From: Yinghuangia soli
Lineage (GTDB): Bacteria > Actinomycetota > Actinomycetes > Streptomycetales > Streptomycetaceae
Direction: 5' to 3'
Length of the DNA stretch: 45,414 nucleotides
NCBI RefSeq assembly: GCF_021502675.1
Contig: NZ_JAKFHA010000006.1
Coordinates: 1-45,414, forward strand
Shown: in pieces, positions 35,580 through 40,953 of the stretch
How the letters are laid out: the number at the start of each line of letters is the position of its first letter
How positions within the stretch are numbered: position 1 is the first letter of the stretch
The notes under the pieces: model-generated
Seen by the model: only the letters and a program-made list of their open reading frames with translations
Database searches by the model: none
What the model was told of the DNA's origin: nothing
Made by a program: the position numbers and the translations under genes

Positions 35580-35655
35580 CCGCGCCGCCGGGACCTGCCT
35601 CTGCAACCTCCTGCCGGAAACTCCGCTCGATACCGGGTGAGAGCGAGGGGGACGC

Positions 35656-36165
35656 ATGAAGCGAGAGCAGGACTTCACCGAGTACGTACACGCCAGGCAG
35701 GACCGGTTGTTCAGAACCGCGTACCTGCTGTGCGGCGACCGCGAACGCGCAAAAGACCTGGCCCAGTCGACGCTGGCCCGGCTCTTCCGGCACTGGAAGA
35801 ACGCCCAGCGCGCCGACAACATCGACGCGTACGCACGGTCGGTGATGGTGCGCATCTACATGCACGAGCAACGCCGCGCCCGGCACGAACGCGAGCTGCA
35901 CGAACGCCTCGACCCGCCGGCCGCCCCGGAGCACACCGACGTCAGGCTCACCCTCCTCGAAGCACTGGACCTGCTGCCACCCAAGGCGCGCGCCGTCGTG
36001 GTGCTGCGCTACTGGGAGGACATGAGCGTCGAGACCACCGCCAAGCTGCTCGGCTGCAGCGAAGGCAACGTCAAAAGCCAATCGTCGCGCGCCCTGGCCC
36101 GGCTGCGCGACATGCTCCCGGCCCATCTGCTGGCCGGCACCGAGCCGTCCGCCGCCGACATCTGA
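35656..36165 (+). CDS. SigE-type ECF sigma factor, cassette 1
   Basis: This 169-residue protein is an actinobacterial SigE-family ECF sigma factor. Region 2 (about 5-75) reads FTEYVHARQDRLFRTAYLLC, then AKDLAQSTLARLFRHWKNAQ. Region 4 (about 105-160) reads LLEALDLLPPKARAVVVLRY, WEDMSVETTAKLLGCSEGNV and SSRALARLRDML. The GAGGGGG site at a good distance supports the ATG at 35656. The next gene encodes a membrane protein that is likely its regulator. A paralogous pair follows it at 37265-38744. Target promoters are unknown. Confidence 0.93.
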   Translation: MKREQDFTEYVHARQDRLFRTAYLLCGDRERAKDLAQSTLARLFRHWKNAQRADNIDAYARSVMVRIYMHEQRRARHERELHERLDPPAAPEHTDVRLTLLEALDLLPPKARAVVVLRYWEDMSVETTAKLLGCSEGNVKSQSSRALARLRDMLPAHLLAGTEPSAADI

Positions 36166-36251
36166 GCGCGGACTCCCGTCCGGCACCGCACCACTGACTT
36201 CCCGTCATATCTGGATCCCCGGGTGCCGCCTGCCCGGAATCGGAGGCAAAG

Positions 36252-37130
36252 ATGCACCAGGAAGACCGAGTCCGCCTTCTCCTCGCCGAGGCCGCCGACG
36301 ACCTCGGCCCCACCCCCGACCTCGCGCCGGGCGCCCTGCGCGCCGGCAAGCGGGCGGTCGTGGCCGGCCGGTTCCGCACCGCCGGCATCAGCATCGCCGC
36401 CGCGGTCGCCGTGCTCACGCCGGCCGCGCTGGTGGCCCCCTGGCCCGGCGGGTCGTCCGGCCCGGCCGCGCAGTACACGCAGTCGATGCCGCTGTTCCCG
36501 GCCGCCTGGCCGAGCGACTCGCCGCTCGAGGCGCCGACCACCGCCTACCCCGTCGTGCACGTCAAGCCCACCAAGGACGAGGGCGATCGGCCGGTCCTCA
36601 CCGACGACCAGCGCCAAGTCCAGTACGCCTTCAAGCAGAAGGCCGCGGACGTCCTGCAGCAGCTGCTGCCCGCGGTACTCGGCACGATGAAGGTGCCGGA
36701 CCGCGACGTCATGTCCCTCCAGGTCGGTACCGACAGCCGGACCTACGCGATCACCTTGCGCGTGGATCCGGGCGGCGACATTCCGACCTTGGACTGCGGC
36801 ACCAACCCGTCCTGCCTGAACGGAACGATGCCCGACGGCACCCGCGTGGCGGTGAGCAGCGGCAGCGCGGCGCCCCCGGGAAGCGGCGTCAATGCGGGGA
36901 CCGTGCACCAAGCGTTCTTCAGCTACAAGGGCAGCAACGTGATCTTCGGGGTCTTCCCGGCCGACGACGGGAGCCTGCCGATCAGTGCACAGCAACTCCT
37001 GGCCGTCATCACCGACCAGCGGTTCGCCGGCCTGCTCGACTTCGCGGTGCGCTACCCGGCCCTGATGCACTCGGGCTACGGCAACACCCCGGGCGAAGCA
37101 GTTCCGGATCCCGCTGCCTCGCACAGCTGA
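36252..37130 (+). CDS. Single-pass membrane partner of SigE-type sigma factor, cassette 1
   Basis: This 292-residue protein is not one I recognise by name. It has a cytosolic N-terminus with EAADDLGPTPDLAPGALRAG, one helix at about 44-63 and an extracytoplasmic domain with FKQKAADVLQQLLPAVLG, TYAITLRV, GTMPDGTRVAV, FSYKGSNVIFGVFP and QQLLAVITDQRFAGLLDFAV. Two cysteines (LDCGTNPSC) may form a disulfide. The same set of motifs occurs in the partner of cassette 2, so the family is real. Gene pairing and topology suggest an anti-sigma-like regulator or sensor. No zinc-finger is seen, so the mode of sigma binding would be new. Confidence 0.8.
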   Translation: MHQEDRVRLLLAEAADDLGPTPDLAPGALRAGKRAVVAGRFRTAGISIAAAVAVLTPAALVAPWPGGSSGPAAQYTQSMPLFPAAWPSDSPLEAPTTAYPVVHVKPTKDEGDRPVLTDDQRQVQYAFKQKAADVLQQLLPAVLGTMKVPDRDVMSLQVGTDSRTYAITLRVDPGGDIPTLDCGTNPSCLNGTMPDGTRVAVSSGSAAPPGSGVNAGTVHQAFFSYKGSNVIFGVFPADDGSLPISAQQLLAVITDQRFAGLLDFAVRYPALMHSGYGNTPGEAVPDPAASHS

Positions 37131-37143
37131 CCTTCCCCTCCCC

Positions 37144-37187
37144 GCAAGGCCCTTCCCCGCTCCCCGGGGGAAGGGCCTTGCCTTGTT
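37144..37187 (+). terminator. Terminator between the two sigma cassettes
   Basis: A perfect 15-bp stem (37144-37158 with 37167-37181) closes an 8-base loop and is followed by CTTGTTT, a short T-rich tail. It separates cassette 1 from cassette 2, so the pairs are probably transcribed separately. Confidence 0.85.
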
Positions 37188-37264
37188 TCCCGGTTCACGG
37201 GACCCGAGTGGAACCCAACCGGCGCGACAGCACTCTGGACGGGGTGACACGAAGGGGGAGGTCG

Positions 37265-37780
37265 ATGCCACCGGAAAACACCTGGGACTTCGAGAGTTAC
37301 GCACGCGCCCGGCAGCAGCAGCTCTACCGGACCGCGTATCTGCTGTGCGGCGATGCGCACCGCGCCCAGGACCTCACGCAGACCACACTCGCCAAGCTCT
37401 TCCAGCACTGGCGCAAGGCGAGCCGCGCGGACAACCTCGACGCCTACGCCAAGACCGTGCTGACCCGGACGTTCATCTCCGAGCAGCGCTCCCGGCGCCG
37501 CGAGCGCGAACTGCACACGCCCGTGGCCCCGTCGGCCCGCAACGCCCGCGGGGGCGACCGCGCCGACCTGCGCGTCACGCTGCTCGACGCGCTCGCCGAA
37601 CTCAACCCGAAGGCCCGCGCGATGGTCGTCCTGCGCTATTGGGAGGACCACAGCGTGGACGCCGTCGCCGACCAGCTCGGCTGCAACCCCGGAACCGTGA
37701 AGAGCACGTGCTCGCGAGCCCTGGCGCGGCTGCGCGAACGGCTCGGGAACGACCTCGACCTGTACGCGACGGAGGCCTGA
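37265..37780 (+). CDS. SigE-type ECF sigma factor, cassette 2
   Basis: This 171-residue protein is a paralogue of the sigma factor at 35656. Region 2 reads FESYARARQQQLYRTAYLLC, then AQDLTQTTLAKLFQHWRKAS; region 4 reads ALAELNPKARAMVVLRYWED, then AVADQLGCNPGTVKSTCSRA. The ATG at 37265 is chosen for the GGGGGAGG just upstream; an earlier in-frame ATG (37178) adds unconserved residues. Nearly every conserved position is shared with cassette 1, while the predicted -35-recognition helix differs (SEGNVKSQSSRA against NPGTVKSTCSRA), so the two may have different targets. Confidence 0.93.
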   Translation: MPPENTWDFESYARARQQQLYRTAYLLCGDAHRAQDLTQTTLAKLFQHWRKASRADNLDAYAKTVLTRTFISEQRSRRRERELHTPVAPSARNARGGDRADLRVTLLDALAELNPKARAMVVLRYWEDHSVDAVADQLGCNPGTVKSTCSRALARLRERLGNDLDLYATEA

Positions 37781-37784
37781 CGCC

Positions 37785-38744
37785 GTGGAGACGCCCATGC
37801 CCGGACGACCGCTGAAGGAACTGATGGAGCACACCGCGGACGATCTGCCGCCGCTGCCCGATCTGGTGCCGGGCGCAGTCGCCTTGGGGCGCCGCCGCCG
37901 GAACCGCAGTCGCGCGCTCATGGCACTGAGTGCGGCATGCGTCGCCGGGGTCGCGGCGTTCGCGGTGCCGGCCGCCCTGCCGGACGACAACGCCGCCGGA
38001 CCGGGACCGGCGTCCACGCCGGTCATCGACACTCCCCGGCCGACCTACTCGGTGGTCCCGGAGCAGGACGGCAACAAGCCGGGCGTGGACCAGCTGCCGC
38101 CCCTGGACAAGGTCGAGGTGCAGGAGTTCAAGCAGCTCGCCGCCGACATGATGCAGCAGGTGCTGCCGCCTGCGATGGGCGAGATCCGGCTGGTGAACTC
38201 GCATGCGGCGGCGTTCCGCGCGGTGTCAGGAAGCAAGACGTACGAGATCACCTTCGGCGTGGACAAGATCCCGTACGGCACCCTGCGCGAGCAGGTCTGC
38301 AGCCCGTCGGGCCGGATCGCCGCGTGCAAGGCAGGTACCCTGCCGGACGGCACACCCGTGGCCGCCGAGCGCGAGAACACCGGCGAGGGCAGCCAGATGG
38401 TCGGCGTCGGCTTCCCCTACAAGGGCAAGTGGGTGCAGTTCATGTTGTTCCCGGGCGGCTTCGGCTCCGGACCGAACCCGCCGGTCACCGTGGAGCAGAT
38501 GCTCACCGTCGTCCAGGACCCGCGGTTCATCGAGTTCATCGACTACGCCGTGGCGCACCCGCTGAACACGCCGCCGCCGCAGACCGAGGCTCCGAACCCG
38601 TCCGCCTATACCGGCCCGCCGCCGTCCTGGAACTGCGTGCCGGCCACGCCCCTGCCCGCCGGGCAGACGCCGGACAAGGACACGCCGATGAACTGCACAC
38701 TGCCGACCGGCCCCCTGCCCAGTTGGCTCGCGCCGCCCAACTGA
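37785..38744 (+). CDS. Single-pass membrane partner of SigE-type sigma factor, cassette 2
   Basis: This 319-residue protein is a paralogue of the one at 36252. It has cytosolic HTADDLPPLPDLVPGAVALG, a basic stretch (RRRRNRSR), a helix at about 44-64 and an external domain with FKQLAADMMQQVLPPAMG, TYEITFGV, GTLPDGTPVAA, FPYKGKWVQFMLFP and EQMLTVVQDPRFIEFIDYAV. The C-terminal tail (about 265-319) is Pro-rich and carries two Cys. Starts at GTG 37785 (GGAGG 9 nt upstream) or ATG 37797 are both possible. The gap to the sigma gene is only 4 bases, so the two are coupled. Role as for cassette 1. Confidence 0.8.
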   Translation: METPMPGRPLKELMEHTADDLPPLPDLVPGAVALGRRRRNRSRALMALSAACVAGVAAFAVPAALPDDNAAGPGPASTPVIDTPRPTYSVVPEQDGNKPGVDQLPPLDKVEVQEFKQLAADMMQQVLPPAMGEIRLVNSHAAAFRAVSGSKTYEITFGVDKIPYGTLREQVCSPSGRIAACKAGTLPDGTPVAAERENTGEGSQMVGVGFPYKGKWVQFMLFPGGFGSGPNPPVTVEQMLTVVQDPRFIEFIDYAVAHPLNTPPPQTEAPNPSAYTGPPPSWNCVPATPLPAGQTPDKDTPMNCTLPTGPLPSWLAPPN

Positions 38745-38810: not shown

Positions 38811-39740
38811 TCAGTCCCGCACCACCCGCACCGGCAGCTCCCGCACCGCGGTTCGCAGCGACTCGGCAAGCTGGGCGAACTCCGCGGCCCGCCCGGTGCT
38901 GGCCCGGATGACCAGGCCGACCCGTCGGAACGGCGCGGGCTCTGCGAACCGGGCCACCTCGAGCCCCGAGCCCGGCCGCGTCTCGACGGCGATCGCGGTC
39001 TCCGGCAGCAGCGTCACGCCGAGGCCCCCGGCCACCAGTTGGACGAGCGTGGGGAGGCTCGCCGCGCGCGTCGCGCCGGCCTCCCCCGCTCCGACCTCGC
39101 GGCACACGTCCAGGGCCTGGTCGCGCAGGCAGTGGCCCTCGTCGAGCAGCAGCACGTCGAGGTCGCGCAGCGCCGAGCGCGGCAGGTCCGTGCGCCCGGC
39201 CGGCGCCGACCCGGCCGGCACCACGAGCGTGAAGTCCTCGTCGTACAGCGGGATTTCCTCGACCCCCGCGACACCCGCGGGCAGCGCGAGGACCAGCAGG
39301 TCCAGGCGCCCGGTGGCCAGGCCGTCGAGCAGCGAGTGGGTCTGCTCCTCGTGCACGTACAGGTCGAGCTCGCGGTAGTCCTCGCGGACCAGCCGCAGGA
39401 GCGCCGGGAGCATGTACGGAGCCACCGTCGGGATCACCCCGAGGTGCAGCGGACCGGTGAACGGGCGGCGCGCGGCCTCGGCCTCGTCGACCAGGTCGTC
39501 CAGCGCGTCGAGCACTCTCCGTGCATGCCGGGCGACCCTTTCTCCGGCCGGAGTCAAGAGGACACGCCGCGTGGTACGTTCCACAAGCTGTGCCCCCAGA
39601 GTCTCCTCGAGCGCCGCGACGGCACTCGACAGCGCCGGCTGGCTCATCCCGATCACCGCGGCCGCATCGCGGAAATGCAAGTGGTCGGCGACCGCCGAGA
39701 AGGCTTTGAGCTGGGCAATCGTGGGGGTGCGGGTACTGAT
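38811..39740 (-). CDS. oxyR: LysR-type peroxide regulator (OxyR)
   Basis: This 309-residue protein, read from a presumed AUC start, is an OxyR-like LysR regulator. The helix-turn-helix begins TPTIAQLKAFSAVADHLHFR and continues DAAAVIGMSQPALSSAV. The effector domain has VIPTVAPYMLPALLRLVR and GHCLRDQALDVC, where the two Cys form the redox switch expected of OxyR. Stop TAG at 39752 closes the frame. No ATG, GTG, TTG or CTG occurs between it and a TTG at 39680, which would lose helix 1. AUC at 39740 lies 5 nt after AGGGAG. It diverges from ahpC, its usual target. A sequencing error near the start is the main alternative. Confidence 0.85.
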   Translation of the reverse strand: MSTRTPTIAQLKAFSAVADHLHFRDAAAVIGMSQPALSSAVAALEETLGAQLVERTTRRVLLTPAGERVARHARRVLDALDDLVDEAEAARRPFTGPLHLGVIPTVAPYMLPALLRLVREDYRELDLYVHEEQTHSLLDGLATGRLDLLVLALPAGVAGVEEIPLYDEDFTLVVPAGSAPAGRTDLPRSALRDLDVLLLDEGHCLRDQALDVCREVGAGEAGATRAASLPTLVQLVAGGLGVTLLPETAIAVETRPGSGLEVARFAEPAPFRRVGLVIRASTGRAAEFAQLAESLRTAVRELPVRVVRD

Positions 39741-39786
39741 AACTACTCCCTATCAAATGATCAGGAACAGTCTATTTCTCTGATCA
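39738..39786. promoter_or_regulatory. Probable OxyR operator between oxyR and ahpC
   Basis: TGATCAG (39758-39764) and CTGATCA (39780-39786) form a perfect inverted repeat with centres 22 bp apart, two helical turns. A second, weaker dyad GATA-N9-TATC (39738-39754) overlaps the oxyR start. OxyR tetramers bind such spaced elements. On the minus strand TAGACT (39774-39769) is a possible -10 for oxyR. Confidence 0.55.
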
Positions 39787-39867
39787 ATCCAAACGTGACA
39801 CGGTGTTCCGCGTACGTCCGACCGGCCGCCCCAGGGCGGGCCGGGCACCATGCGCGGAGGAGACCCA

Positions 39868-40419
39868 GTGCTTACTGTCGGTAACCAGTTCCCCGAGTAC
39901 GACCTGACCGGTGTCGTGTCGATCGACGCCGACAAGGCGTTCGAGCAGATCACGAACAAGTCGTACGACGGCAAGTGGCGGGTCGTGTTCTTCTGGCCGA
40001 AGGACTTCACCTTCGTCTGTCCGACCGAGATCGCCGCCTTCGGCCGCCTGAACGAGGAGTTCGCGGACCGCGACGCGCAGATCCTCGGCGTCTCCACCGA
40101 CTCGGAGTTCGTGCACCTGGCCTGGCGCAAGGACCACCCGGACCTGACCGACCTCCCGTTCCCGATGCTGAGCGACCTCAAGCGCGAGCTGGCCGAGGCC
40201 TGCGGCGTGCTGAACGCGGACGGCGTCGCGGACCGCGCGGTCTTCATCGTCGACCCGAACAACGAGATCCAGTTCGTCATGGTCACCGCCGGCTCGGTGG
40301 GCCGCAACCCCGACGAGGTCCTGCGGGTGCTCGACGCGCTGCAGACCGACGAGCTGTGCCCCTGCAACTGGCAGAAGGGCGGCGACACCCTGGACGCCGC
40401 CGCGCTGATGGCGGGCTGA
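39868..40419 (+). CDS. ahpC: Alkyl hydroperoxide reductase peroxiredoxin
   Basis: This 183-residue protein is the actinobacterial AhpC peroxiredoxin. The peroxidatic Cys51 is in FTFVCPTEIAAFG; two cysteines near the end (164 and 166, in ELCPCNWQKGG) serve as resolving residues. It reduces H2O2 and organic hydroperoxides and is recycled by AhpD. The GTG at 39868 is chosen because GGAGGAG lies 5 nt upstream; an in-frame ATG at 39850 precedes that site and adds a poor sequence. It is followed 3 bases later by ahpD. Confidence 0.96.
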   Translation: MLTVGNQFPEYDLTGVVSIDADKAFEQITNKSYDGKWRVVFFWPKDFTFVCPTEIAAFGRLNEEFADRDAQILGVSTDSEFVHLAWRKDHPDLTDLPFPMLSDLKRELAEACGVLNADGVADRAVFIVDPNNEIQFVMVTAGSVGRNPDEVLRVLDALQTDELCPCNWQKGGDTLDAAALMAG

Positions 40420-40422
40420 CCC

Positions 40423-40953
40423 ATGGGTCTGGACGTCCTGAAGGCCGAACTCCCGGAGTTCGCCAAGGACCTGAAGCTCAACCTGGGCTCGGTCGTGGGC
40501 AACTCCAAGCTTCCCGAGCAGACGCTCTGGGGCACCGTGCTGGCCTGCGCGATCGCGTCGCGCAGCCCTAAGGTGCTGCGTGAGCTGGAGCCGGAGGCCA
40601 AGAGCCACCTCTCCGAGGAGGCGTTCAACGCCGCCAAGGCCGCCGCGGCCATCATGGCGATGAACAACGTGTACTACCGCGCCATGCACCTCATCGGCGA
40701 CCCCGAGTACGGCAACCTGCGTGCCGGGCTCCGCATGAACATCATGGCCAACCCGGGCGCCCCGAAGGCCGACTTCGAGCTGTGGTCGCTCGCGGTGTCC
40801 GCGATCAACGGCTGCGGTCGCTGCCTGGAGTCGCACGAGCAGGTCCTCCGCAAGGAAGGCGTGCCGCGCGAGACCATCCAGGAGGCGATCAAGATCGCTG
40901 CCGTGGTCAACGCGGTCGGTGTGACCCTGGAGTCCGAGGCCCAGCTCGTCTGA
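40423..40953 (+). CDS. ahpD: Alkyl hydroperoxide reductase AhpD
   Basis: This 176-residue protein is AhpD, the CxxC electron donor for AhpC in actinobacteria. The catalytic motif is [13 protein letters not shown], with Cys131, Cys134 and His138. The thioredoxin-like activity passes electrons from dihydrolipoamide (SucB, Lpd) to AhpC. Length and helical content match the family. It is three bases downstream of ahpC and co-transcribed with it. Confidence 0.95.

Follow-up and report, generated by a model that had tools for sequence, protein, structure and literature searches.

Two tandem SigE-family sigma factor cassettes of Yinghuangia soli with putative minimal membrane-tethered anti-sigma partners

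What does a membrane protein do to the sigma factor that is encoded directly before it? The question is raised by two tandem cassettes in a 45,414-nucleotide stretch of Yinghuangia soli DNA (contig NZ_JAKFHA010000006.1, positions 1 to 45,414; referred to as the window). Each consists of a gene for a SigE-family extracytoplasmic function (ECF) sigma factor and a gene for a single-pass membrane protein, here called the partner. We consider it probable that the partner carries a minimal membrane-tethered anti-sigma domain, CnrY-like in action, with which it holds its sigma. Contact between the cytosolic tail of the partner and the sigma is well supported by sequence comparison. The evidence computed here comprises the gene pairing, the shared tail, the coevolution of sigma region 2.2 with the second helix of the tail, promoter-like elements and a terminator.

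Pairing of SigE-family sigma factors with membrane partners

The two sigma genes, each followed by a membrane protein gene, are located at 35656-37130 and 37265-38744 (Table 1), in agreement with the first-pass annotation of this DNA. Both sigmas are members of TIGR02983 (SigE-fam_strep) by its curated cut-off of 141.55 bits. They share 58% identity, and their recognition helices (CSEGNVKSQSSR in sigma 1 and CNPGTVKSTCSR in sigma 2) differ, as had been annotated. The partners, with 32% identity across their aligned region (E 4e-28), share a cytosolic motif (ADDLGPTPDLAPGA in partner 1, ADDLPPLPDLVPGA in partner 2), a hydrophobic helix from residue 44, and FKQxAAD, QQxLP, TYxIT, PDGTxVA, YKG and DxRF; every motif listed in the first-pass annotation is present in both. 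Neither partner matches Pfam at E<=1, and no member of a 21-row partner alignment does so at E<=0.01. Residues 31-81 of partner 2, covering the end of the tail and the transmembrane helix, match NCBIfam NF038083 (CU044_5270 family) weakly, at 19.2 bits against a cut-off of 100, and partner 2 is thus not a member; 3 of the 21 alignment members match this family at E<=0.01. The NCBIfam match of partner 1 is at chance level (E 0.21). HxxxCxxC occurs in neither cytosolic tail, which bears out the earlier statement that the partners have no zinc-finger anti-sigma domain.

The Y. soli genome (9.7 Mb, 91 contigs) encodes 25 sigmas above the TIGR02983 cut-off, and in 24 a partner-type protein follows, in which an N-terminal tail of ~40-70 residues with arginines at its end leads to a single membrane helix and then an ectodomain; the exception is L004. 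A cleaned collection, part of which was located through the partner itself, holds 354 distinct sigmas, and 343 score at least 120 bits on a sigma model built in this analysis. A single-pass partner follows 301 of these. The others have a neighbour without a transmembrane helix where one is expected (26), no room downstream (13), no downstream open reading frame (2) or a neighbour with several transmembrane helices (1). Limited to loci found by the sigma itself and having room downstream, the single-pass partner is present in 271/299. With the earliest possible start codon, 207 of the 301 pairs have overlapping sigma and partner genes; in the window subfamily a gap of 9 bases is the commonest (22/76). 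Of the 330 sigmas that reach 120 bits and have room downstream, none (0/330) is followed by a gene whose product has Hx3Cx2C within residues 1-90. The six zinc-finger neighbours in the collection all stand beside sigmas below 120 bits.

Searches that start from the partner give the same picture. The partner 2 query against 200 genomes of the family found 24 places in 18 genomes, the two window places included; 21 are directly downstream of a sigma, a frameshifted partner (L043) being among the loci. Two others (L054, L056) are the decayed end of an array in Y. seranimata. The last (L049/L062; L062:2565-3953, genome G030) has no sigma within its 7 kb. This ectodomain relative also has no cytosolic tail and likely starts right at the membrane helix, and the joint loss of tail and sigma fits a tail that serves the sigma. 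A partner-family profile run on 296 genomes of the phylum gave 10 loci outside Y. soli, all with an adjoining sigma on the same strand (a weak one at L081). A 77-position profile of tail and transmembrane helix has 19 matches at E<=1e-4 in Y. soli, all beside SigE-like sigmas; nine of them were absent from the model, and the sigma at L032 lies below the curated cut-off. Weaker matches in Y. soli include transmembrane-only ones without a listed sigma (for example C34:120526, E 1.6e-4). In 98 genomes of the class, 30 loci were kept with this profile: one is the window, four repeat partner-profile loci and three coincide with the sigma-found L302, L320 and L328. The sigma is upstream on the same strand in 28 and just downstream in 2. 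Partner relatives lying mostly away from sigma genes, which the first-pass annotation had named as the outcome that would speak against it, are not what the partner 2 query and the search of the class genomes returned. The pairing is general for SigE-family sigmas and recurs widely in Actinobacteria; it is not peculiar to the window locus.

Some SigE-like sigmas are partnerless (L004, and 26 + 2 + 1 of the 330, some of them mis-calls), as would be expected if the sigma were under another control (transcription, proteolysis or another anti-sigma) and the partners were vestigial. Throughout the phylum, partners with differing ectodomains are kept beside the sigma, and we regard a vestigial role as very improbable. 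Two of the 26 neighbours without the expected transmembrane helix (L274, L311) are mis-called, the tail being present. Our script found no membrane partner for L004, L191, L258, L283-L285 and L288, nor for L166, L254, L256 and L282, where the next gene looks like what we take to be an AMP-binding ligase. The partnerless SigE-family sigmas (L004, L191, L166 and others) are either orphans or differently controlled.

Irregular gene structures were also seen. In L043 (genome G020) the tail and the ectodomain of the partner are in separate frames; the partner protein of L094 (Embleya scabrispora) starts in the same way as that of this broken gene. In L141 (Streptomyces diastatochromogenes) the sigma frame enters the partner tail frame and then runs out of frame, which looks like sequencing errors. 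One open reading frame (L347:1810-3366, genome G514) joins a SigE-like sigma to the helix 2, arginine and transmembrane stretch and an ectodomain, with helix 1 missing. We set this natural fusion aside as proof of contact; it is a single case and possibly a sequence error. A search in 149 genomes matched 20; the 19 other matches reach residue 193 of 518 at most, cover the sigma part and slightly beyond, and none shows the fusion.

The cytosolic tail and sigma region 2.2

From 275 aligned tails we derive the consensus [LVIFM]-R-x-x-[LMF]-x-x-A-A-x-x-L-P-P-x-P-D-L-x-x-x-A-x-R-G-R-R-R-R... Hydrophobic residues make up 97-98% of two columns that precede the Arg stretch; five alignments of shuffled tails peak at 57% in one column and do not exceed 33% in the next. 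Because of this contrast, and of the E value of 4e-28 between the window partners, the shared tail pattern and the partner similarity exceed chance. The ectodomains vary while the tail stays common: of 13 partner pairs in the Y. soli genome that match at E<=0.01, more than half do so only in the N-terminal part with the tail and transmembrane helix.

The positive-inside rule predicts that a segment leading into a membrane helix will end rich in arginine. The pairs could accordingly be co-regulated neighbours that never touch, the partner being an effector of the regulon and the tail a membrane-insertion signal, and it is in keeping with this that the ectodomain likewise tracks the sigma. Much of the conserved pattern, however, precedes the Arg stretch (the hydrophobic columns and PPxPDL). 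Mean-field direct coupling analysis of sigma and tail also argues against neighbours without contact, and overall we judge this explanation unlikely.

The coupling analysis used 275 sigma-tail pairs (effective number of sequences 190); 24 of 299 pairs were dropped because the end of the tail held fewer than 4 basic residues. A first set of 278 pairs had contained mis-framed sigma fragments, and the sigma profile was rebuilt from 237 of the 278 rows; the top sigma and tail positions are the same in both runs. The strongest coupling is between sigma column 38 and tail column 28 (score 2.24, z 8.1), followed by sigma column 38 with tail column 31 (1.49, z 5.4). Sigma column 38 is the second A of QTALAKLY in region 2.2, A43 of sigma 2 by count; the two tail columns are A31 and L34 of partner 2. 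These residues were placed by counting from the coevolution alignment plus the sequence. On each helix the coupled positions are separated by one turn, the spacing expected of packed helices. A score of 2.24 would rank sixth among couplings within the sigma (separation over 5). Control maxima in the same rows are 1.08 for the transmembrane helix, 0.95 for the linker and 0.96-1.20 for 12 shuffled pairings, so the signal peaks at a single sigma helix position and the transmembrane helix and linker have no such peak. When tails were permuted only within sigma clades, p was 0.001-0.007 over five clade cut-offs. Leaving out the window subfamily or the G-G clade does not displace the two top couplings from ranks 1 and 2. 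As judged from these alignments, the coevolution forms one coherent spot between sigma region 2.2 and tail helix 2. By count, the top position is Ala-Ala in both window pairs and hence does not separate the two cassettes.

AlphaFold models agree with a two-helix tail. Partner 2 alone (21-row alignment) is predicted to form helices at 10-19 and 28-59, the second running into the transmembrane helix; the predicted local distance difference test (pLDDT) of the tail blocks (residues 11-50) is 74, 68, 80 and 78. When the sigma and partner of Streptomyces sp. SID3343 were modelled as one chain (30-row alignment), the two-helix layout was also obtained and the tail blocks, turn included, reached 89, 94, 96 and 88. 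Gene adjacency, coevolution and the better-ordered tail in the sigma-containing model together make it very probable that the short cytosolic motif is the part of the partner that binds the sigma, as the first-pass annotation had supposed. Using Foldseek, the SID3343 chain model is closest to the sigma chains of RpoE-NepR (TM-score 0.78 by target) and SigW-RsiW (0.76); for CnrH of the CnrH-CnrY entry 4cxf the TM-score is 0.68 by target length (E 0.076). Sigmas with sandwiched-type inhibitors (RseA, MucA, RskA) give 0.33-0.40, and polymerase-bound sigmas align with a root-mean-square deviation of >20 Å. The modelled sigma is compact in its prediction, like those of RpoE-NepR, SigW-RsiW and CnrH-CnrY rather than polymerase-bound ones.

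With the partner as an anti-sigma factor, each cassette would be a self-contained signalling unit of a SigE-family ECF sigma and a co-produced membrane-anchored inhibitor. The first ~43 residues of the partner would form a minimal two-helix anti-sigma domain, with helix 1 ([LVIFM]RxxL..AA...L) probably on sigma domain 4. After the PPxPDL turn, helix 2 would pass through the Arg stretch into the membrane and pack on the region 2.2 helix, covering the sigma surface that holds the RNA polymerase clamp. The bound sigma would stay at the membrane, away from the polymerase. A signal at the ectodomain, possibly a ligand, or else proteolysis would free the sigma, which would then activate its own operon via a promoter of the CAACCT-N16-CTC type.

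Several results weigh against this mechanism. The third coupling (sigma 42 with tail 32, 1.08, z 4.0) is within the control range, as is the best one between helix 1 and sigma 4 (sigma 131 with tail 13, 0.94, z 3.5). The tested pairs were selected after viewing the coupling scan; when the data are split randomly into two halves, the leading coupling drops to ranks 10 and 17 of 6273, and it does not stand out in plain mutual information with average product correction computed on the initial, uncleaned set. In the window subfamily (57 pairs) the mirror-tree partial correlation of sigma with tail, given the ectodomain, is 0.115 (p 0.12), and the ectodomain tracks the sigma more strongly (0.45) than the tail does. 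The AlphaFold runs with and without sigma differ in query and alignment, and the compact sigma shape may be an AlphaFold default. Two Y. seranimata partners (L058:6098-7132 and L058:9164-10054) have the same ectodomain family and an acidic DVIDLD...DDD tail in place of LR..PPLPDL..RRRR; one of them comes after an intact sigma. The inhibition itself is an inference.

Mirror-tree comparison was set aside as support, the results being mixed across pair sets. In 99 non-redundant pairs the partial r of sigma and tail given the ectodomain is 0.303 (p 0.0005); in 26 paralogues of the genome itself it is 0.099 (p 0.18), with none for the transmembrane helix.

Relation to known anti-sigma factors

According to its passages on anti-sigma domains, PMC7406223 places the final helix of domains in classes I, II and III on regions 2.1/2.2 or sigma 2. 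Regions 2.1/2.2 are described there as holding the polymerase clamp and as receiving this helix in classes I and III, and the second CnrY helix as binding sigma 2 likewise. As far as the alignments tell, the sigma surface that coevolves with the tail is this site of the last helix in known anti-sigma domains.

These data leave room for a partner that binds its sigma through the tail as a co-activator, or in the manner of a sigma proprotein, since coevolution and models are blind to the sign of action, and a dual case is known: the title of PMC7509140 calls RskA a dual function activator-inhibitor of SigK. The coevolving surface is, however, the region 2.2 helix, with which other ECFs grip the clamp of the polymerase (in the part of PMC7406223 cited above), and binding there should exclude the polymerase. 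A co-activating partner is for this reason improbable in our estimate, if marginally less so than neighbours without contact.

The closest known arrangement to the proposed anti-sigma tail is CnrY, the class II anti-sigma of CnrH in Cupriavidus metallidurans, which PMC7406223, where it treats class II, describes as two short helices with the second on sigma 2. The window partners are predicted to have a two-helix tail before a single transmembrane helix, and the coevolution points to the second helix on sigma 2. Unlike CnrY, window-type partners carry a large variable ectodomain, and the likeness meant here is one of working. CnrY works with CnrX, a further difference. The mini anti-sigma domain may be either CnrY-like or a class of its own.

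Class I anti-sigmas (RseA, RskA, RsiW, ChrR) are similar in being often membrane-tethered, encoded near the sigma and placed with the last helix on sigma 2.1/2.2; their domains have four helices and 101 +/- 33 residues on average in the account of PMC7406223. Against a class I definition of four helices in a cytosolic domain of over 50 residues that a profile recognises, the window partners differ, with a tail of ~43 residues, no Hx3Cx2C, no Pfam match and, in the model, one tail helix plus one continuous with the transmembrane helix. The absence of Hx3Cx2C also separates the family from the zinc-finger anti-sigmas (ZAS). RsbN, the class III anti-sigma of BldN in Streptomyces venezuelae, is likewise from the Streptomycetaceae and touches sigma 4 and sigma 2.1/2.2 (PMC7406223, in a passage that swaps the two names). 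It has three helices, unlike the modelled window tail, which would not place the tail in class III.

A passage of PMC11256431 guesses, for some ECFs of S. venezuelae, that the neighbouring membrane proteins are anti-sigmas, one of them from an unknown family. Our literature search found no title or abstract that names this partner family, although an earlier mention as putative anti-sigmas is possible. Its novelty is limited to the tested partners passing no Pfam or NCBIfam cut-off and to no paper found that names the family. A passage of PMC7406223 has class I anti-sigmas near only ~32% of ECF sigmas. We lean slightly towards the view that the partners of TIGR02983 sigmas are among the largest unannotated anti-sigma classes of Actinobacteria, a ~40-residue plug with exchangeable ectodomains that provides about two dozen parallel membrane sensors per genome. 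Should the tail prove to be an anti-sigma domain, ~40 residues would suffice to recognise the protein that controls most actinobacterial SigE-family sigmas. Mutants could then be made at a defined contact, the promoter could serve as a readout, ligands could be sought for many ectodomains, and single genomes would offer many natural sigma/anti-sigma pairs.

The ectodomain has at least two cysteines beyond residue 100 in 72/76 members of the window subfamily, and two Cys columns are invariant in the 21-row partner alignment. A structure search with the partner 2 ectodomain gave a best E of 0.018 and none <=0.001; at these values (E 0.018 and worse) the best structure probabilities are 0.97 for CyanoP, 0.92 for Tsi3 and 0.82 for DcrB, which we take to belong to a Mog1p/PsbP-like superfamily. 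Its sequence against solved structures gave weak beta-lactamase matches alone (E 0.17 and worse). The ectodomain is perhaps a Mog1p/PsbP-like alpha/beta domain with a conserved cysteine pair, which may form a disulfide.

Layout and history of the locus

Promoter-like elements precede both sigma genes (Table 1). Of 69 non-redundant subfamily sigmas, 42 have [CG]AACC[TC]-N15-17-CTC upstream (null mean 0.7, max 3) and 40 have CAACC[TC]-N15-17-CTC (null mean 0.3, max 4); the spacer is 16 bases in 40 of the 42 sites, and the consensus is TTCAACCTTT then GCTC. The elements fit positive autoregulation from partly diverged promoters. The terminator that had been annotated between the pairs is there, with a strong stem; the region has 3 terminator-like sites, compared with a mean of 1.1 in shuffled sequence.

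Table 1. Features of the two cassettes (coordinates on the forward strand of the window; both cassettes are on the + strand)
Feature	Position	Strand	Basis
Promoter-like element, cassette 1: CAACCT-N16-CTCG	35604..35629	+	Pattern scan upstream of subfamily sigma genes
Sigma 1, SigE-family ECF sigma factor, 169 aa	35656..36165	+	TIGR02983 154 bits, above cut-off
Partner 1, single-pass membrane protein, 292 aa	36252..37130	+	Tail ~1-43, transmembrane helix from 44 (hydropathy), ectodomain
Partner 1 cytosolic tail, proposed mini anti-sigma domain	36252..36380	+	Tail alignment, coevolution, tail profile
Intrinsic terminator separating the cassettes	37144..37181	+	15-pair stem, loop 8, T-rich tail
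Promoter-like element, cassette 2: GAACCC-N16-CTCT	37211..37236	+	Spacer equal to cassette 1, first box diverged
Sigma 2, SigE-family ECF sigma factor, 171 aa	37265..37780	+	ATG at 37265; TIGR02983 169.6 bits, above cut-off
Partner 2, single-pass membrane protein, 319 aa	37785..38744	+	Reading frame, partner 1 similarity, AlphaFold model
Partner 2 cytosolic tail	37785..37913	+	A31, L34 = two top coevolving tail columns (sigma 2 A43 opposite)

At the same place Y. seranimata (L058) has 3 sigmas, 4 full partners and 1 partner fragment, flanked by an aminotransferase gene and a LysR/AhpC-like cluster; Streptomyces sp. SID3343 (L060/L133) has one cassette at the corresponding place. The fragment (L058:10132-10500, 122 residues) comes after a leader resembling the one of window sigma 2, but the sigma itself is missing, and by its sequence this is a decayed cassette. 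The locus resembles a tandem array that gains and loses cassettes. In a 79-row sigma tree, sigma 2 groups with the sigmas of the Y. seranimata array (100/99); sigma 1 is placed elsewhere on a long branch, weakly joined to L044 (95/4). A 22-row topology test disfavours sigma 1 and sigma 2 as sisters (p-value of the approximately unbiased test, p-AU, 0.028), and does not reject a clade of sigma 1, sigma 2 and three Y. seranimata sigmas (p-AU 0.126). The window cassettes thus do not appear to be a fresh duplicate. Of the earlier proposal of a duplication that became two independent circuits, the independence agrees with the separate promoter-like elements and the terminator; a recent local one-step duplication is disfavoured by the topology test and the grouping of sigma 2 with Y. 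seranimata. These trees make a recent duplication unlikely and an old one inside the array possible.

Beside the cassettes, window 38811-40953 contains a LysR-type regulator gene (minus strand) and two further genes, which from their motifs we take to be ahpC and ahpD. The same LysR/ahpC-like/ahpD-like neighbours also flank the Y. seranimata array (L058) and the single cassette in L060.

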